NCBI GenBank assembly: GCA_035274845.1
Contig: DATENU010000022.1
Location: 1 to 64,000, forward strand
Source of the DNA: Chthoniobacterales bacterium
Lineage (GTDB): Bacteria > Verrucomicrobiota > Verrucomicrobiia > Chthoniobacterales > UBA10450
DNA length: 64,000 nt
Reading direction: 5' to 3'
The notes below the pieces were generated by a model. It saw only the letters and a program-made list of their open reading frames with translations, did no database searches and was not told where the DNA came from. Below, one piece after another: positions 45,596-52,379 of the stretch (within the stretch, counting starts at the first letter, position 1; every line of letters begins with the position of its first letter). The translations under genes were made by a program, and so were the position numbers.

Positions 45596-47062
45596 TTACG
45601 GGATGTTGTAGGCTTCGACCAACCCCACACCGGTGGTGCCGCTGTTCCCGCGCACGACTGCGGTGTACGACCCCGGCGCTAAAGTTTCCACGAGCGCTGC
45701 CTCCTCGGCATGACCGGGAGCAAGCCCGGCTGCCTGAATCTGGGTGCTTTGGGCCGGGTCGTCCTGCCAGTTATCGTCCGAGCGAATAACCGTCCCGCTC
45801 GAATTAACCAGGTCGAGCGTCGGATTGGCCAGGAACCCCGAAACCCCAAAGTCACCCAAGGTCGGCCCGAGCGCCCTCACCAGAATCTTGAGAGTTCCTC
45901 CGTTACTCGGCCCCACAATGAGTCCGGCAATCATGACGTTGTCCTCCACATCCACAAATCCCCGCGTGCTGATGTTCCCCAGTTTTGACGCCGCGGCCGA
46001 GTCCAGATCGTAGACTTCCACCAGGCCAGTCCCGGTCGTGTTGTTGAGTCCGCGGACGACGGCGGTGTAGCCCTGGTTCGGCGTCAGCGTCCAGATAATA
46101 GCGGACTCCGCGGGGTCGCTTGGCGCCAGCCCGGTGGCTGAAATCTCCGCTTGCTGCGTGGAGTTTTGCCAGTCGTCGTTACTCATCAGGAGAGTACTGC
46201 CCTGGAAAAGGTCGAGCGTCGGATTGGCCAGGGCGCCGGGAACGCCAAAGCCGGTGAGCGATGGCCCGATCGCGCGAACGATCACGCGTTTGCCAGCCGT
46301 GCCGGTGGCAATCATTCCGCCAATCAAAGCGTTGTCCCCGGTCAGAATGCGGAGCCGGGTAGAGATATTCCGCAAAGTGGAAGCGGGCGGCGTTGGCACG
46401 GTCAAGACGGTGGAGGCGCCTGAATTATTAGTGAAAGTCGCGGCGCCTGAGGTTACGGAATAATCGGCCGCATTGTTCGTGCTCATGGTGCTGCCGCCCG
46501 TAAAGAGCAGCGCGGAAGTAGAGGTGGAGGGCAACGCTCCGCCAAAGGGCGGGGCAAAATCTCCGTCCATATCATTGTCTATCGTTCCGGTGTTGGGGCC
46601 GGTGTAAGAGGCGCCGCCCCAGCTCACGGACCAATAAACAAGTCCTCCCTTCTCATAGCGCAATCTGCCCGCGGCGAGATAACTGGCGGGAATCGGGTTC
46701 GTCATCGTGAAGTCCGTCGTGATCGGCGTGCTCTCGTAGTTTGCAAAACTGGAGGTGGCAATGAGGATGCGTTTAAGCGCGCCACTGGTGACATTCGACG
46801 GAAACGTAATCAGGGTGACCGGGTTGTTTCCCGCGGCGTCGACCACCACGAGTTGAGCGCCGGTGATCAGATTTTGGCCCGCGAAGCGCATCCGCAACTG
46901 GACCGCCTGGGCGGTGGTGTCTCCGTTCACCCCGCCGATCACCTGTTCGATTTGCATGAAGTGAAAGGTGGCGTGAGCTGGGACCGCCAACGCCAGAGCG
47001 GCGAGCGCGGCGAAAATTCGCAGGCTGCGCGTGGACGCAGCAAGAAGACGATAAGTTTTCAT
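45596..47062 (-). CDS. Secreted protein with lamin-tail-like N-terminus and C-terminal module
   Basis: The 488-residue protein has a signal peptide (MKTYRLLAASTRSLRIFAALAALALAVPAHA). A beta-rich domain of about 190 residues follows (FHFMQIEQVIGGVNGDTTAQAVQLRM), tentatively lamin-tail-like. A short linker leads to the two-repeat module (about 45596-46377), which ends VEAYNIP. Here the low-complexity linker is nearly absent, only a VPTPPA stretch, which separates it from its relatives. A strong GGAGG ribosome site precedes the ATG at 47062. It is transcribed divergently from lpxC-fabZ. Confidence 0.85.
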   Translation of the reverse strand: MKTYRLLAASTRSLRIFAALAALALAVPAHATFHFMQIEQVIGGVNGDTTAQAVQLRMRFAGQNLITGAQLVVVDAAGNNPVTLITFPSNVTSGALKRILIATSSFANYESTPITTDFTMTNPIPASYLAAGRLRYEKGGLVYWSVSWGGASYTGPNTGTIDNDMDGDFAPPFGGALPSTSTSALLFTGGSTMSTNNAADYSVTSGAATFTNNSGASTVLTVPTPPASTLRNISTRLRILTGDNALIGGMIATGTAGKRVIVRAIGPSLTGFGVPGALANPTLDLFQGSTLLMSNDDWQNSTQQAEISATGLAPSDPAESAIIWTLTPNQGYTAVVRGLNNTTGTGLVEVYDLDSAAASKLGNISTRGFVDVEDNVMIAGLIVGPSNGGTLKILVRALGPTLGDFGVSGFLANPTLDLVNSSGTVIRSDDNWQDDPAQSTQIQAAGLAPGHAEEAALVETLAPGSYTAVVRGNSGTTGVGLVEAYNIP

Positions 47063-47143
47063 GGCATAACCTCCGTGAAGCTGATGGCGCAGGGCACGTC
47101 GCTCAAAAGTACGAAACGGGCAGCCGCTTCTCAAGCCTGGAAT

Positions 47144-47300
47144 AGATTGGAGGCGGCCTGCCCCCAGGCCGTGGGCTCTTGGGCTGCCGGAACGCCGCGC
47201 AACTCTCCGGCACGAAGGCGTGCCGGCTCCATTTACCCGGGAGTTGCATTGCGTTCCGGCGTGCAAAGTCCACGGCCTGAGGACAGGCCGCCTCCAATCC
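47144..47300. repeat. Nested long inverted repeat in the divergent intergenic region
   Basis: About 30 bases at 47144-47174 (AGATTGGAGGCGGCCTG and onward) pair almost perfectly with 47271-47300. Inside, GGAACGCCGCGCAACT pairs with AGTTGCATTGCGTTCC, and a core CCGGCACGAAGGCGTGCCGG closes the structure. The whole 157-base element can fold into one long hairpin. It lies between the divergent starts of a secreted protein gene and lpxC-fabZ. Confidence 0.8.
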
Positions 47301-47366: not shown

Positions 47367-48686
47367 ATGTCTTCCGAGCTTCAGCAAACTCTCGCCCGGA
47401 GCGCAAGCGTCAGCGGCACGTCCTTGCACACCGGGGAAAAGGTCATGCTCAAATTGCAGCCGGCTCCGGTCGATTCCGGCATCAAGTTCAAACGCAAGGA
47501 CCTGGAGGAGGAACCAACCATCGACGCGACGATCGCCAACCTGAAAACGGTCGAGCGCGCCACGACGATTGGGGAAGGGTCGATGCGGGTTCACACTGTT
47601 GAGCACATCCTCTCCGCCCTCGCGGCCATGGGAGTCGATAACGCCGTGGTGGAAATGGACGCCAACGAACCCCCCATCGGGGACGGCAGCGCCCGGCCCT
47701 ACGTGGAGCTGATCAAGAAAGCGGGCACGGTCGAGCAGGAGACTCCACGGCGGGTTTTCGAGGTGCGCGAACCGATCCACATCGAGATGAAGAACGGATC
47801 GCTCCTCGTCGTGCTTCCCGATCCGAAATTTCGCATTTCCTGCACCCAGGCCGGACCGGGCGGGCAATTCACCCAGTTCCTTTCCACCGAGATCACCCCT
47901 GCCATCTATGAGCGGGAGATCGCGCCGGCGAGGACATTCGTGTTTTACGAAGACGTCCAGGGACTCATGGACAAAAACCTGATTAAGGGCGGGAGCCTCG
48001 AGAACGCGATCGTCGTCCGTGGCGACGCCGTCCTCAGCAAGGAACCGTTGCGATTTCCTGATGAATTCGTGCGCCACAAGATTCTCGATATCGTGGGCGA
48101 CCTCGCGCTTCTTGGGCAACGCATTCGCGGCCATGTCATCGCGGTCAAACCCGGGCATGGCGCTAACGCGGAGCTGGTCCGCGCTCTGGCCCGCGAAGTC
48201 GCGCGTTCGGCGCCGGTGTTGCAACCGCACACTTTTCCGGCGGGCGAAGGCGGGCTCGATATCAACGAGATCATGGAGCTCTTGCCGCATCGTTATCCTT
48301 TCCTGATGGTCGACCGGATCGCGCGGTTCGAGGGCGAAACGAAATGCATCGGCGTGAAGTCGGTCACGATTAACGAGCCGTTCTTCGCCGGTCATTTTCC
48401 GGGGCACCCGGTCATGCCCGGCGTCCTCCAGGTCGAAGCGATGGCGCAGGTCGCCAGCGTCCTGATGTTGAAGCTCACCAAGAGCGCCTCCGGACGGCTC
48501 GGCTATTTCGTGAGCGCGGACGAAGTAAAATTCCGCAAACCGGTTTTCCCCGGCGACACGCTCTTCATTTCCGCGGAGTTAACGAAAACGCGCGGCAAAC
48601 AACTGGCGCGATTGAAGTGCAGCTGCTCGGTCAACGACACGGTTGTCTCCGAATGCGAGCTGATGCTGAGGCTGCTGGATCAATGA
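47367..48686 (+). CDS. lpxC/fabZ: LpxC-FabZ fusion: UDP-3-O-acyl-GlcNAc deacetylase and 3-hydroxyacyl-ACP dehydratase
   Basis: The 439-residue protein joins two enzymes. Residues 1-295 are LpxC, the zinc deacetylase committing lipid A synthesis: zinc His in HTVEH (76-80), and His237 and Asp241 in RHKILDIVGD. Residues 297-439 are FabZ: LLPHRYPFLMVDR, catalytic His343 in AGHFPGHPVMPG and Glu357 in VEAMAQ, spaced 14 residues apart as in E. coli FabZ. Such fusions are known in Bacteroidetes and relatives and couple acyl-chain supply to lipid A demand. The ATG at 47367 is chosen by the family start. The stop overlaps an ATG that begins a decayed copy of the lpxA 5' end. Confidence 0.97.
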   Translation: MSSELQQTLARSASVSGTSLHTGEKVMLKLQPAPVDSGIKFKRKDLEEEPTIDATIANLKTVERATTIGEGSMRVHTVEHILSALAAMGVDNAVVEMDANEPPIGDGSARPYVELIKKAGTVEQETPRRVFEVREPIHIEMKNGSLLVVLPDPKFRISCTQAGPGGQFTQFLSTEITPAIYEREIAPARTFVFYEDVQGLMDKNLIKGGSLENAIVVRGDAVLSKEPLRFPDEFVRHKILDIVGDLALLGQRIRGHVIAVKPGHGANAELVRALAREVARSAPVLQPHTFPAGEGGLDINEIMELLPHRYPFLMVDRIARFEGETKCIGVKSVTINEPFFAGHFPGHPVMPGVLQVEAMAQVASVLMLKLTKSASGRLGYFVSADEVKFRKPVFPGDTLFISAELTKTRGKQLARLKCSCSVNDTVVSECELMLRLLDQ

Positions 48687-48718
48687 GCGACGTGCAAATT
48701 CACCCGACCGTGATCGGG
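48683..48718 (+). pseudogene. Duplicate of the lpxA 5' end, overlapping the lpxC-fabZ stop
   Basis: The ATG at 48683 overlaps the lpxC-fabZ stop (ATGA). The first 12 codons read MSDVQIHPTVIG, against MSDAQIHPTAIV at the real lpxA start (48840). Identity then ends where a palindromic repeat begins. It looks like the original, coupled lpxA start, now cut off from the gene body. If translated it would yield a short repeat-derived peptide ending at 48847. Confidence 0.75.
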
Positions 48719-48833
48719 TTTTGTTGTAGCGACGGCGCTCTGTCGCCGTTCACAGCTGAGGTTGCAATTGACGCGCCGAAACGCCGACTGAGCGGCGTCG
48801 CTACAGCTCGCCCTGCAACAGTTCATCGCCGAG
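48719..48833. repeat. Palindromic element inserted at the lpxA start
   Basis: TTGTAGCGACGGCGCTCTGT faces the inverse ACTGAGCGGCGTCGCTACAG (48787-48806), with a centre of about 45 bases. The same family occurs at 38460-38545. The element lies between the two copies of the lpxA 5' end. Confidence 0.75.
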
Positions 48834-48839
48834 GTGACT

Positions 48840-49619
48840 ATGAGTGATGCGCAAATTCACCCCACGGCCATCGTGGATCCGAAGGCGGAGATCGGGGCCG
48901 GCGGAATTATTGGCCCGTATTGCATTGTCGAAGCCGGCGTGGTCCTCGGGCCGGACTGCTGGCTCCAACACCACGTCACGCTTTGCGGCCCGATGACCGC
49001 CGGCGCGCGAAACAAATTCTACGCCTATTGCTCGATCGGCCAGCAAACCCAGGACCTGAAGTATCAGGGAGAGCCGACCTATCTCGAGATCGGTGACGAA
49101 AACTCCTTTCGCGAGTTCGTCACCGTAAATCGCAGCACGACAGGCGCGGGCAAGACCCGCGTTGGCAGTCGCGGAAATTTCCTCGCTTACAGCCACATCG
49201 GCCACGATTGCACCGTCGGCGACGCCGTGGTCTTTTCGAACAACGGAACGCTGGCCGGGCATGTCCAGGTTGGCGACCACGCCATCATGGGCGGGCTGAC
49301 GGCCGTGCATCAATTTTGCCGGATCGGACGTTACGCGATTACGGGCGGCTGCTCGAAAATCGTGCAGGACATTCCGCCGTTCATGATCGCCGACGGCAAC
49401 CCCGCGAAGGTGCGCGGAATAAATCTGGTCGGCCTCGAACGAAGCGGCTTTCCGGCGGAGAGCGTCAAGTGGATCAAGGAGGCCTTCCGCCTGATTTACC
49501 GGTCGAAGTACAACACCCGCCAGGCCATTGAAGCGATCCGCCAGCAACTTCCCTCGAGCGTCGAGATCGATCAGATCGTCGAGTTTATCGAGAAGAGCGA
49601 ACGCGGCATTATCCGTTAG
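48840..49619 (+). CDS. lpxA: UDP-N-acetylglucosamine acyltransferase LpxA
   Basis: The 259-residue left-handed beta-helix enzyme starts MSDAQIHPTAIVDPKAEIGAG and shows hexapeptide turns throughout. The catalytic-His region reads GSRGNFLAYSHIGHDCTVGD (about 107-126). The C-terminal helical part includes NLVGLERSGFPAESVKWIKEAFRLIY. It makes UDP-3-O-acyl-GlcNAc, the substrate of LpxC, so the two genes act in consecutive steps. The start used here lies after an inserted repeat; a GTG at 48834 is also in frame. lpxD and lpxB are not in the window. Confidence 0.96.
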   Translation: MSDAQIHPTAIVDPKAEIGAGGIIGPYCIVEAGVVLGPDCWLQHHVTLCGPMTAGARNKFYAYCSIGQQTQDLKYQGEPTYLEIGDENSFREFVTVNRSTTGAGKTRVGSRGNFLAYSHIGHDCTVGDAVVFSNNGTLAGHVQVGDHAIMGGLTAVHQFCRIGRYAITGGCSKIVQDIPPFMIADGNPAKVRGINLVGLERSGFPAESVKWIKEAFRLIYRSKYNTRQAIEAIRQQLPSSVEIDQIVEFIEKSERGIIR

Positions 49620-49637: not shown

Positions 49638-49701
49638 GTGAATGGTGATGAGTGACTGGTGAATGGGAGTCTCCATTCACCGATCACCAGTCACTATTCA
49701 C
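49638..49701. repeat. Inverted heptamer repeat after lpxA (GTGAATG/CATTCAC)
   Basis: Four in-phase 7-bp units (49638-49665: GTGAATG, GTGATGA, GTGACTG, GTGAATG) are followed by an 8-base loop and four inverse units (49674-49701). Together they form a near-perfect 28-bp stem. This is the most compact heptamer hairpin in the window and could act as an RNA 3'-end structure for the lpxA transcript. Confidence 0.92.
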
Positions 49702-49737
49702 AGTACCGTTCGGGGAGCACGGCCGCCTATGGCCGGC

Positions 49738-49822
49738 GAGAGGAGGTGGATCGGCCGCTCCGCGGGCGATAAGAACGGCGATGCGGACAAAACGATCGAG
49801 CGACGGAGCGCTCGATCCACCT
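49738..49822. repeat. GGTGGATCG palindromic repeat pair
   Basis: AGGTGGATCGGCCGCTCCGC (49743) and the inverse GAGCGCTCGATCCACCT (49807-49823) frame about 45 bases. They are the same family as 1450, 7421 and 36490-36714. The right end overlaps the stop codon region of the convergent beta-helix gene. Confidence 0.7.
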
Positions 49823-52043
49823 AAGGCACGTTGTAAATCTCAACTAGGCCGATTCCGGAGCCGCCGCTCTTGCCGGCCAGGATGGCGGTAAAAGCGCCTG
49901 GCGGGAGCACCGCGTAAATTCCGGATTCCTTCGCATGCTGGGGAGCGAGGTTATGGGAGCTTAACTGAGAAGCTGAGGAGGGATCGTCCTGCCAATCGTC
50001 GTTCGAGATCATGAGGGCGCCGTCCGCATTGCGCAGCTCGAGAGTCGGATCGGTCAAGACCGGACTAAGGCCAAACTGGGCCAGCGACGGCCCAATCCCG
50101 CGCACCACTATTTGGCTGGTGCCGCTGCCGCCGCCGAGAATGAACCCGCCGATCATGACGTTGTTCCCGGTCTGCACCAGGCCGCGGGTGCTGATGTTGG
50201 CGAGTTGCGACCCGGTCCCCTGGCTTGTGTCGTAGAGTTCGACCAGACCGACGCCAACGCCGTTGTTTTTTCCGGCCAGAACCGCGGTGTAAGCGGCCGG
50301 CGCGAGCGTGGCGACGATGCCTGATTCCTTTGGATCGTGAGGGGCGAGGCCAAGAGCGCTAAGTTGAGCGGCCTGTTGGGGGTTGTCCTGCCAATCGTCG
50401 TTTTGGAAGATCAAAGCGCCACTGGCCGCCCGCAGTTCCAGGGTTGGGTCAGCCAGCACATCGCTCAAGCCGAAACCGGTCAGCGACGGCCCAATCCCGC
50501 GCAGGACCACCTCCTTTGACATATTGCCCGTGATAATGAAACCGCCGATGAGAACGTTGTCGCCGGTCTCGACCCGCAAACGCGTGGAGATGTTTCCCAG
50601 AGAGATCGGGGTGATAGTTGCGGTTGGAGTGGGTGTCGGCGTTAGAGTTGGTGCTGGGGTCGAAGTTCCGGTCGGAGTTGGTGACGGCGTCGGAGTTGGC
50701 GTCGGAACAGGAGTTGGCTGCACTTCAACTGAGCCGATGTCGATCCGCCCATTGAAGATACGCGCGTAACCGGTGCCCCGCTGATCGGACGAGGGCGGTG
50801 GTGTAAAGTTGGGGTCGCCCGCGTTGATGGCTGGGCTGCCGCTCAGCGGCAAATGGGTCAAGGTCGGACCGCCGTTGTTCTGAAGCGGACCAAGCACGGG
50901 ATTGGTGTTGACCTGGTCACCGCTGCCGGTCAAGAAGCCACCGCCGTCGTCACTACTCAGATTGTAACCCTCCGAGGTGACGGTGGCTCCGCTGCTGAAA
51001 ATGTTGGCGCCCGAGGCGCCCGCGTCCAGGATCGTATTCCCAATCTTAAGAATGCCGCCAGTGTGATGGATTCCGCCGCCGTTTCGGTTGGCCCTGTTGC
51101 CGCTGATTGTGCTGTTCGTAATCGTGAGCATCCCATTACTTCCACCCTGGCTGATTCCGCCGCCGTCTTGGTTGGAGAAATTGCCGCTGATCGTGCTGTT
51201 GACGATCGTCAGCGTTCCGCTGCTAGCGATGCCGCCCCCGGTGCCGGATTCGTCGCCACGGGCCTGGTTGCCGCTAATGGTGCTGTTGGTAATTGTCGCA
51301 TCGCTGCAAACGATGCCGCCGCCCGTGCCGGAGCCTACGAAATTTGAGAAAGCACTGTTACCGCTGATCGTGCTGTTAATAATCACCAGCGGTCCGCCGA
51401 GGATGCCGCCCCCGTCAAAGACAGCTTTGTTATTGGTGATTTTGCTGTTGATGATCGTCATTTGCCCTCCCGCGATGCCGCCACCACGCCCTGTCGGAAA
51501 GCCAAAGCTGAAGGTCGCCCAATTGTCAGTGACAATGCTATTGACGATGGTCAGCGTTCCGAAGCTGGCGATGCCGCCGCCGCTGTCGCCAGCGTCCATG
51601 ACGTTATCCGAAACAACGCAATTATCCATGGTCAACGTCGCCTCGTTGAGCAGACCGCCGCCCGGTTCCCCACTGGCGCTCCCGTTGCTGATCCTGAGGC
51701 CCTCTATTGTGACAGTGTGGCTGGGCAGGATATGAAAGATACGAAAGTAAGTGAGCGAATCTGCTCTCACCACCGCGAGGAGATCTGGACCTGGGCCATC
51801 GATGGTAATGTCATTATCAATCACCAATTCATCGCTAGTCAGGATGATGGTCTGGCCGTTAAGCGCGGGATCGAACTGAATCGTATCGCCGTCGTTCGCT
51901 GCGGCGATGGTACCGCGGAGAGAGCCCGTTCCGCTATCCGCCGTGCTCGTGACGATGAGCGTCGCTCCTTCAGCGCTTCTAACGAACGCCAGCGCTAGAC
52001 ACAGAGTAGCGAAGGCGATGAGACGGAGGAGGAACAGGCGCAT
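49821..52043 (-). CDS. Secreted beta-helix protein with PTPT linker and C-terminal module
   Basis: The 740-residue protein has a signal peptide (MRLFLLRLIAFATLCLALAFVRSAEG) from the ATG at 52043. The mature start ATLIVTSTADSGTGSLRGTI resembles the other beta-helix protein here. Many turns of NSTISGN type follow (TIVNSTISGNFSN, GGGI...). A VQPTPVPTPTPTPSPTPTGT linker leads to the two-repeat module (about 49821-50602), ending VEIYNVP. It is probably a surface adhesion or polysaccharide-interacting protein; no catalytic residues are recognised. The gene diverges from the BNR protein gene at 52380. Confidence 0.87.
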   Translation of the reverse strand: MRLFLLRLIAFATLCLALAFVRSAEGATLIVTSTADSGTGSLRGTIAAANDGDTIQFDPALNGQTIILTSDELVIDNDITIDGPGPDLLAVVRADSLTYFRIFHILPSHTVTIEGLRISNGSASGEPGGGLLNEATLTMDNCVVSDNVMDAGDSGGGIASFGTLTIVNSIVTDNWATFSFGFPTGRGGGIAGGQMTIINSKITNNKAVFDGGGILGGPLVIINSTISGNSAFSNFVGSGTGGGIVCSDATITNSTISGNQARGDESGTGGGIASSGTLTIVNSTISGNFSNQDGGGISQGGSNGMLTITNSTISGNRANRNGGGIHHTGGILKIGNTILDAGASGANIFSSGATVTSEGYNLSSDDGGGFLTGSGDQVNTNPVLGPLQNNGGPTLTHLPLSGSPAINAGDPNFTPPPSSDQRGTGYARIFNGRIDIGSVEVQPTPVPTPTPTPSPTPTGTSTPAPTLTPTPTPTATITPISLGNISTRLRVETGDNVLIGGFIITGNMSKEVVLRGIGPSLTGFGLSDVLADPTLELRAASGALIFQNDDWQDNPQQAAQLSALGLAPHDPKESGIVATLAPAAYTAVLAGKNNGVGVGLVELYDTSQGTGSQLANISTRGLVQTGNNVMIGGFILGGGSGTSQIVVRGIGPSLAQFGLSPVLTDPTLELRNADGALMISNDDWQDDPSSASQLSSHNLAPQHAKESGIYAVLPPGAFTAILAGKSGGSGIGLVEIYNVP

Positions 52044-52379
52044 CCTCGCTAAATTTACCGCATAGGCATCCCCGCAGCGAAACCTTTTTTCGGCGATAGG
52101 AATATTTATCCGCCCAAGCATCATGCTAGCGACCCGGTATGGGACGCCGGGCCACTCCAAAGTGATCGGTTTACAAAGTTGGCCAGCATTTGCTGAAACC
52201 CTTCAAGGCTCGGCTGAGCGCGATGTCCCTTGTTAAAACAATACGAAGTGTCTTGACTCTTACCTGCTCTTCGGGAGACAACCATGATCTCCCCGCAAAC
52301 TCCCCCAATCCCCCAACGCAAGCTCCCCAACTCAAGCTCCCTCAACTGCCCTAAGCCAATGAATATTGACGTCCCCCGT
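52044..52379. other. Divergent intergenic region
   Basis: These 336 bases separate two divergently transcribed secreted-protein genes and should hold both promoters. TTGACTCTTACC near 52253-52264 could be a -35 region for the rightward gene, but no convincing -10 is seen. A CAAGCTCCCCAACT / CAAGCTCCCTCAACT near-repeat occurs at 52319-52350. No RNA gene or strong palindrome is visible. Confidence 0.4.

Follow-up and report, generated by a model that had tools for sequence, protein, structure and literature searches.

A doubled lpxA start around a GTAG-tagged REP dimer at the fabZ/lpxA junction of a soil Chthoniobacterales genome

Two copies of the lpxA start at one junction

The window, a stretch of 64,000 nucleotides, belongs to a soil Chthoniobacterales MAG (Verrucomicrobiota; 4.5 Mb, 95.9% complete); its near relatives, among them palsa_1395 and AV80, are MAGs of Antarctic and soil origin. 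On its forward strand lies a fused lpxC-fabZ gene (47367–48686), read in one frame with Pfam matches to LpxC (E 2e-93) and FabA-like (8.7e-32), followed by lpxA (48840–49619), which has Hexapep and Acetyltransf_11 matches and a protein product 88–92% identical to the best congener copies. The 5′ end of lpxA is present twice on this strand, as a stump at the end of lpxC-fabZ (copy 1, 48683–48716) and as the current start joined to the gene body (copy 2, 48840–48873), with a GTAG-tagged, REPIN-like REP dimer (48722–48807) between the two. The TGA stop of lpxC-fabZ (48684–48686) overlaps the ATG of copy 1 (48683), and the same ATGA overlap is present in all congeners. A second palindrome, GTGACTGGTGAATGGG...CCATTCACCGATCACCAGTCAC, was spotted by eye downstream of lpxA (positions 49643–49704 of the window), and the genes flanking the lpxC-fabZ-lpxA group, both on the reverse strand (45596–47266 and 49821–52160), encode large proteins that each carry GNISTR...GDN..IGG repeats.

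The two copies form a direct repeat with a spacing of 157 bases and 27 of 34 positions identical (per-position binomial tail 1.3e-10); when the 1 kb upstream was shuffled 2,000 times (first-order), no shuffle scored above 23/34. The initial annotation, which described the first 36 bases of lpxA as occurring twice around a palindromic element, is thereby confirmed in its observation, with an aligned length of 34 bases instead of 36. Of the seven differences between the copies, five fall at third codon positions and the other two, in codons 4 and 10, at second positions (V/A in each case), in agreement with the proposal that the copies diverged mainly at silent sites. This description is nevertheless incomplete, since four of the five changes that can be polarised lie in the functional copy 2 and just one in the stump. 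Codon 5 is CAA in both copies, and CAG in 7/7 congener loci.

It is highly improbable that the resemblance is due to chance or to faulty assembly. The source is a MAG, and assemblers err at repeats, but the score of 27/34 is far above that of the shuffles, fabZ is next to lpxA in nearly all relatives, and the junction lies inside a 397 kb contig; moreover, a misjoin at the REP would require that some other genome has a REP within codon 12 of lpxA.

In all seven lpxA loci from six congeners (L066–L071, L073), fabZ and lpxA meet in the ATGA overlap without any insert. The congener junction is continuous, reading ...GGATCA-ATGAGC... (GGACCA in one), and equals the left junction of the source locus; copy 1 is thus the ancestral start, copy 2 is the current one, and the insertion occurred in this lineage. 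The comparison with relatives for an empty site therefore bears out the insertion that had been proposed and shows it to be lineage-specific: no congener locus shares the arrangement, and the short frame upstream of lpxA is not conserved. Two peculiarities were encountered among the relatives. Two full-length lpxA genes occur in congener AV80 (G006:C51:338-1114 and G006:C47:197345-198121, i.e. L071 and L073), both behind fabZ with an ATGA overlap, representing either a second locus or contamination, and at G011:C103:9182-9851 (L253) the lpxA match is split (residues 1–119 and 153–259) with 33 residues missing, either because the gene is broken or through a fault of assembly.

The REP dimer, the filler and the linker frame

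The palindromic part of the insert amounts to 86 bases (48722–48807), not the 115 bases originally given for the palindromic element. Its arms (48725–48750 and 48780–48805) are 88% complementary and enclose a variable spacer of 29 bases; some 37 further bases separate the element from the two copies (about 5 on the left, 32 on the right) and are not palindromic. The element occurs elsewhere as well: it is a dispersed repeat with 54 matches in the genome (43 in congener G001), and the core GTAGCGACGGCGCTCTGTCGCCGT together with its inverse forms 27 dimers including that at the junction, with GTAG at the outer ends. Most dimers measure 77–81 bases between outer GTAG and CTAC, two are shorter (59 and 61 bases), and their spacers are unconserved. 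Most genomic copies are closely flanked by long open reading frames, as called mechanically, and do not lie clearly inside one.

GTAG-tagged REPs have been reported from Verrucomicrobia, namely Opitutus terrae (PMC3733652). The element described here resembles the known GTAG-tagged REP and REPIN dimers (PMC3733652, PMC3116915) in its GTAG outer ends, head-to-head pairing, variable spacer and dispersal between genes, and in the presence of RAYT genes in the same genome, where nine PF01797 matches (Y1 transposase, RAYT-type) lie above the cut-off. Unlike in those systems, none of the RAYT loci of this genome has this exact REP core within 1.5 kb, at up to 6 mismatches. Close by one of them, G000:C8:22729-23037 (L045), doubled GTAGCGGCGGTCT REPs occur on both sides, and GTAGCGGCGGTCT is a sister type of the junction element. 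A cognate RAYT flanked by its REP is frequent in published families but not needed for every REP family; that of the junction element may reside in unassembled parts of the genome or may have been lost.

Long flanking direct repeats were found at 0/41 other dimers, 26 of them from this genome and 15 from congeners, and the highest flanking-repeat scores besides the junction dimer, those of L154 and L166, are both due to adjacent palindromes. The element is hence an ordinary dispersed repeat of the genome; what stands out is the 34-base duplication. The initial annotation had suggested an insertion with an unusually long target duplication, or copying during repair; the insertion stands, but 34 bases is not the normal duplication of this element. 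Long and variable target duplications of 8–514 bp are known for IS1549/IS1634 (PMC2266710), with which the junction insert shares its long flanking direct repeats, yet it belongs to another family of elements and its sibling dimers lack such repeats.

The region 48683–48880 is predicted to form a strong hairpin (−77.6 kcal/mol, z −2.1). A search of the region for RNA families gave no match. A terminator was also considered, and the sole terminator-like site (48702–48719) scores at shuffle level. The REP dimer probably has no specific role at lpxA.

Between the dimer and copy 2 lies a filler of 32 bases (48808–48839, forward strand; GCAACAGTTCATCGCCGAGGTGACT), which is unique in the genome. Its last 25 bases, abutting copy 2, have zero other genomic matches at up to 3 mismatches. 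Two candidate sources of the filler were discarded: no genomic site from which it might have been copied was found, and the end of fabZ matches it at approx. 6/21 positions when compared by eye, which is chance level. The filler carries GAGGTGA (48831–48837, forward strand), the Shine-Dalgarno sequence of the current lpxA start, with 2 bases between it and the ATG, as read from the sequence (the scan gave GAGGTG). The ancestral start has just GAGG, 11 bases away, congeners having the same or nothing, so that among congeners and the source genome GAGGTGA is confined to the derived arrangement.

An open frame of 54 codons (48683–48847, forward strand) runs from the ancestral lpxA ATG through the element, and its TGA (48845–48847) overlaps the present lpxA start. 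It has no Pfam match, and the probability of such a frame arising by chance in this insert is about 0.34. Of the 28 inserted loci across the family that retain a start codon, 18 have an uninterrupted frame between the old start and that of lpxA, versus 6.4 expected from shuffles. A conserved function of the linker frame was nonetheless rejected: a second frame of these inserts is uninterrupted just as frequently, the loci share ancestry, frameshifts separate sister loci, and the frame at the junction itself has the chance probability given above. The initial annotation had regarded the translational coupling of the operon as broken. This is not supported: the open frame spans the distance from the fabZ stop to the start of lpxA, and lpxA is preceded by a good Shine-Dalgarno sequence of its own. 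Neither feature proves fabZ-lpxA coupling; judged from sequence, the new Shine-Dalgarno appears the likelier route to LpxA, and reinitiation is possible.

Inserts at the same junction across the family

Insertion of palindromes at the fabZ/lpxA junction is ordinary in this family. Inserts are present at 31/64 family loci, with two more in an added genome set, and they are mostly palindromic and of several unrelated types: GTAG REPs, TTCGTCATTCGTCAT repeats, CCCTCACC...GGTGAGGG repeats, and composites. Folding z scores below −2 were obtained for 20/31 inserts as against 5/31 coding controls. A quick lpxA tree, in which many branches are weak and to which types were assigned by eye, requires at least 12 changes between the empty and inserted states and 20 changes of type.

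As at the source locus, these inserts occupy the same site with both genes intact, and most leave an ATGA-, GTGA- or ATG-type remnant on the fabZ side and an lpxA gene with its own start. Such a configuration is needed for both essential genes to survive. Unlike at the source locus, the element families of the other insert types are unrelated to that described here and the lpxA stump is short: no stump longer than about 7–10 bases was found in the other junction inserts. The long stump is thus unique to the source locus among the dozens of loci compared.

Palindromes turn over rapidly between genes in this lineage. L113 and L119, placed by the lpxA tree as sisters on short branches (98% SH-aLRT), have unrelated junction inserts, of CCCTACCC and TTCGTCAT type respectively. 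In L247 and L248 (the junctions of G094 and G080, 206–210 bases), a GATCCTTCGACTGCG... repeat is nested within a TTCGTCAT-type insert. Similarly, when six REP sites of the source genome (L151, L157, L158, L162, L171, L180) were compared with the corresponding gaps in congeners (L210–L239), the same gaps usually held different inserts, often palindromic, among them REPs of other types, ACCACAGAG...CTCTGTGGT, GGAGGGACGTG..., GGATCGCGCG... and others. Palindromes thus seem to replace one another at fixed intergenic sites. The six copies had also been considered as an empty-site test, but most relatives have a different insert at these places, which obscures any short target duplication.

Origin of the doubled start

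We propose, with a probability of roughly 0.5, that in this lineage the GTAG-type REP dimer reached the ATGA junction of fabZ and lpxA through an event in which the first ~34 bases of lpxA were doubled. Of the two copies, the left would have remained with fabZ and preserved its stop codon, and the right with the lpxA body, leaving lpxA whole. The duplication would have been part of the inserting event itself, although nothing dates the two to a single event. A repair route appears likelier than the usual transposition of the element: synthesis may have switched template to a REP copy and returned upstream of the exit point, or a long staggered break may have been filled in. Initiation of lpxA would now depend on the new GAGGTGA, perhaps aided by ribosomes terminating the 54-codon linker frame on top of the start. 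A one-off repair duplication is preferred over a property of the transposase because sibling copies lack flanking repeats. Between two essential genes only an insertion that duplicates the overlap could survive, so the site selects such events.

The CAA of codon 5, common to both copies, fits a duplication within the lineage. Three observations argue against a duplicative insertion, namely the 4:1 excess of polarisable changes in copy 2, since changes would be expected to accumulate chiefly in a drifting stump (p about 0.016, taking 3:1 as a rough expectation); the start of the similarity exactly at the ATG, where repair need not stop; and the 32-base filler without a source in the genome. The first two would find an explanation if REP, filler and the first part of lpxA had been brought in by recombination from a diverged relative that already had the insert. 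Copy 1 would then be the host start and copy 2 the donor ortholog, with no duplication at all, the similarity would naturally begin at the ATG, the filler would have arrived with a ready-made Shine-Dalgarno, and the changes in copy 2 would be those of the donor. Such an import is possible, if on balance unlikely. Copy 2 matches congener lpxA starts at 24–27/34 and copy 1 at 25–30/34, and copy 2 agrees at 29/34 with L072, a locus of a different genus whose junction also holds a GTAG REP; L072 likewise scores best over the initial 100 lpxA bases (0.81 versus 0.78 for congeners). However, this margin corresponds to just 2–3 bases, beyond base 34 lpxA is about equally close to congeners and to L072, such that the imported tract would have to be very short, and the shared CAA is absent from congeners.

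The order of events might also have been reversed, a short tandem copy of the lpxA 5′ end having first created a dispensable spacer into which the REP dimer came later, in its usual way and without target duplication. The other copies of the element, which lack flanking repeats, are consistent with this, as is the absence of large target duplications in IS200/IS605, the relatives of RAYTs (PMC2817692). Even so, this course of events appears rather unlikely: a tandem copy from the exact ATG would have had no ribosome site unless the filler was also added, and the intermediate was seen in no relative examined.

On the preferred reading, that of a duplicative and repair-like insertion, the locus is a well-preserved scar of REP insertion, useful as a test case though not a system of a new kind. 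As a long shot, one might generalise that REP dimers can insert by break repair duplicating tens of target bases, that essential stop/start overlaps trap such events, and that the inserts become translated linkers which keep coupling. The consequence for the essential lipid A gene lpxA is probably modest, amounting to altered surroundings of its start. As regards the route by which REP dimers insert, an essential overlap that has been invaded repeatedly across the family is a place where insertion scars can be read, the junction described here showing the longest scar among the loci compared.
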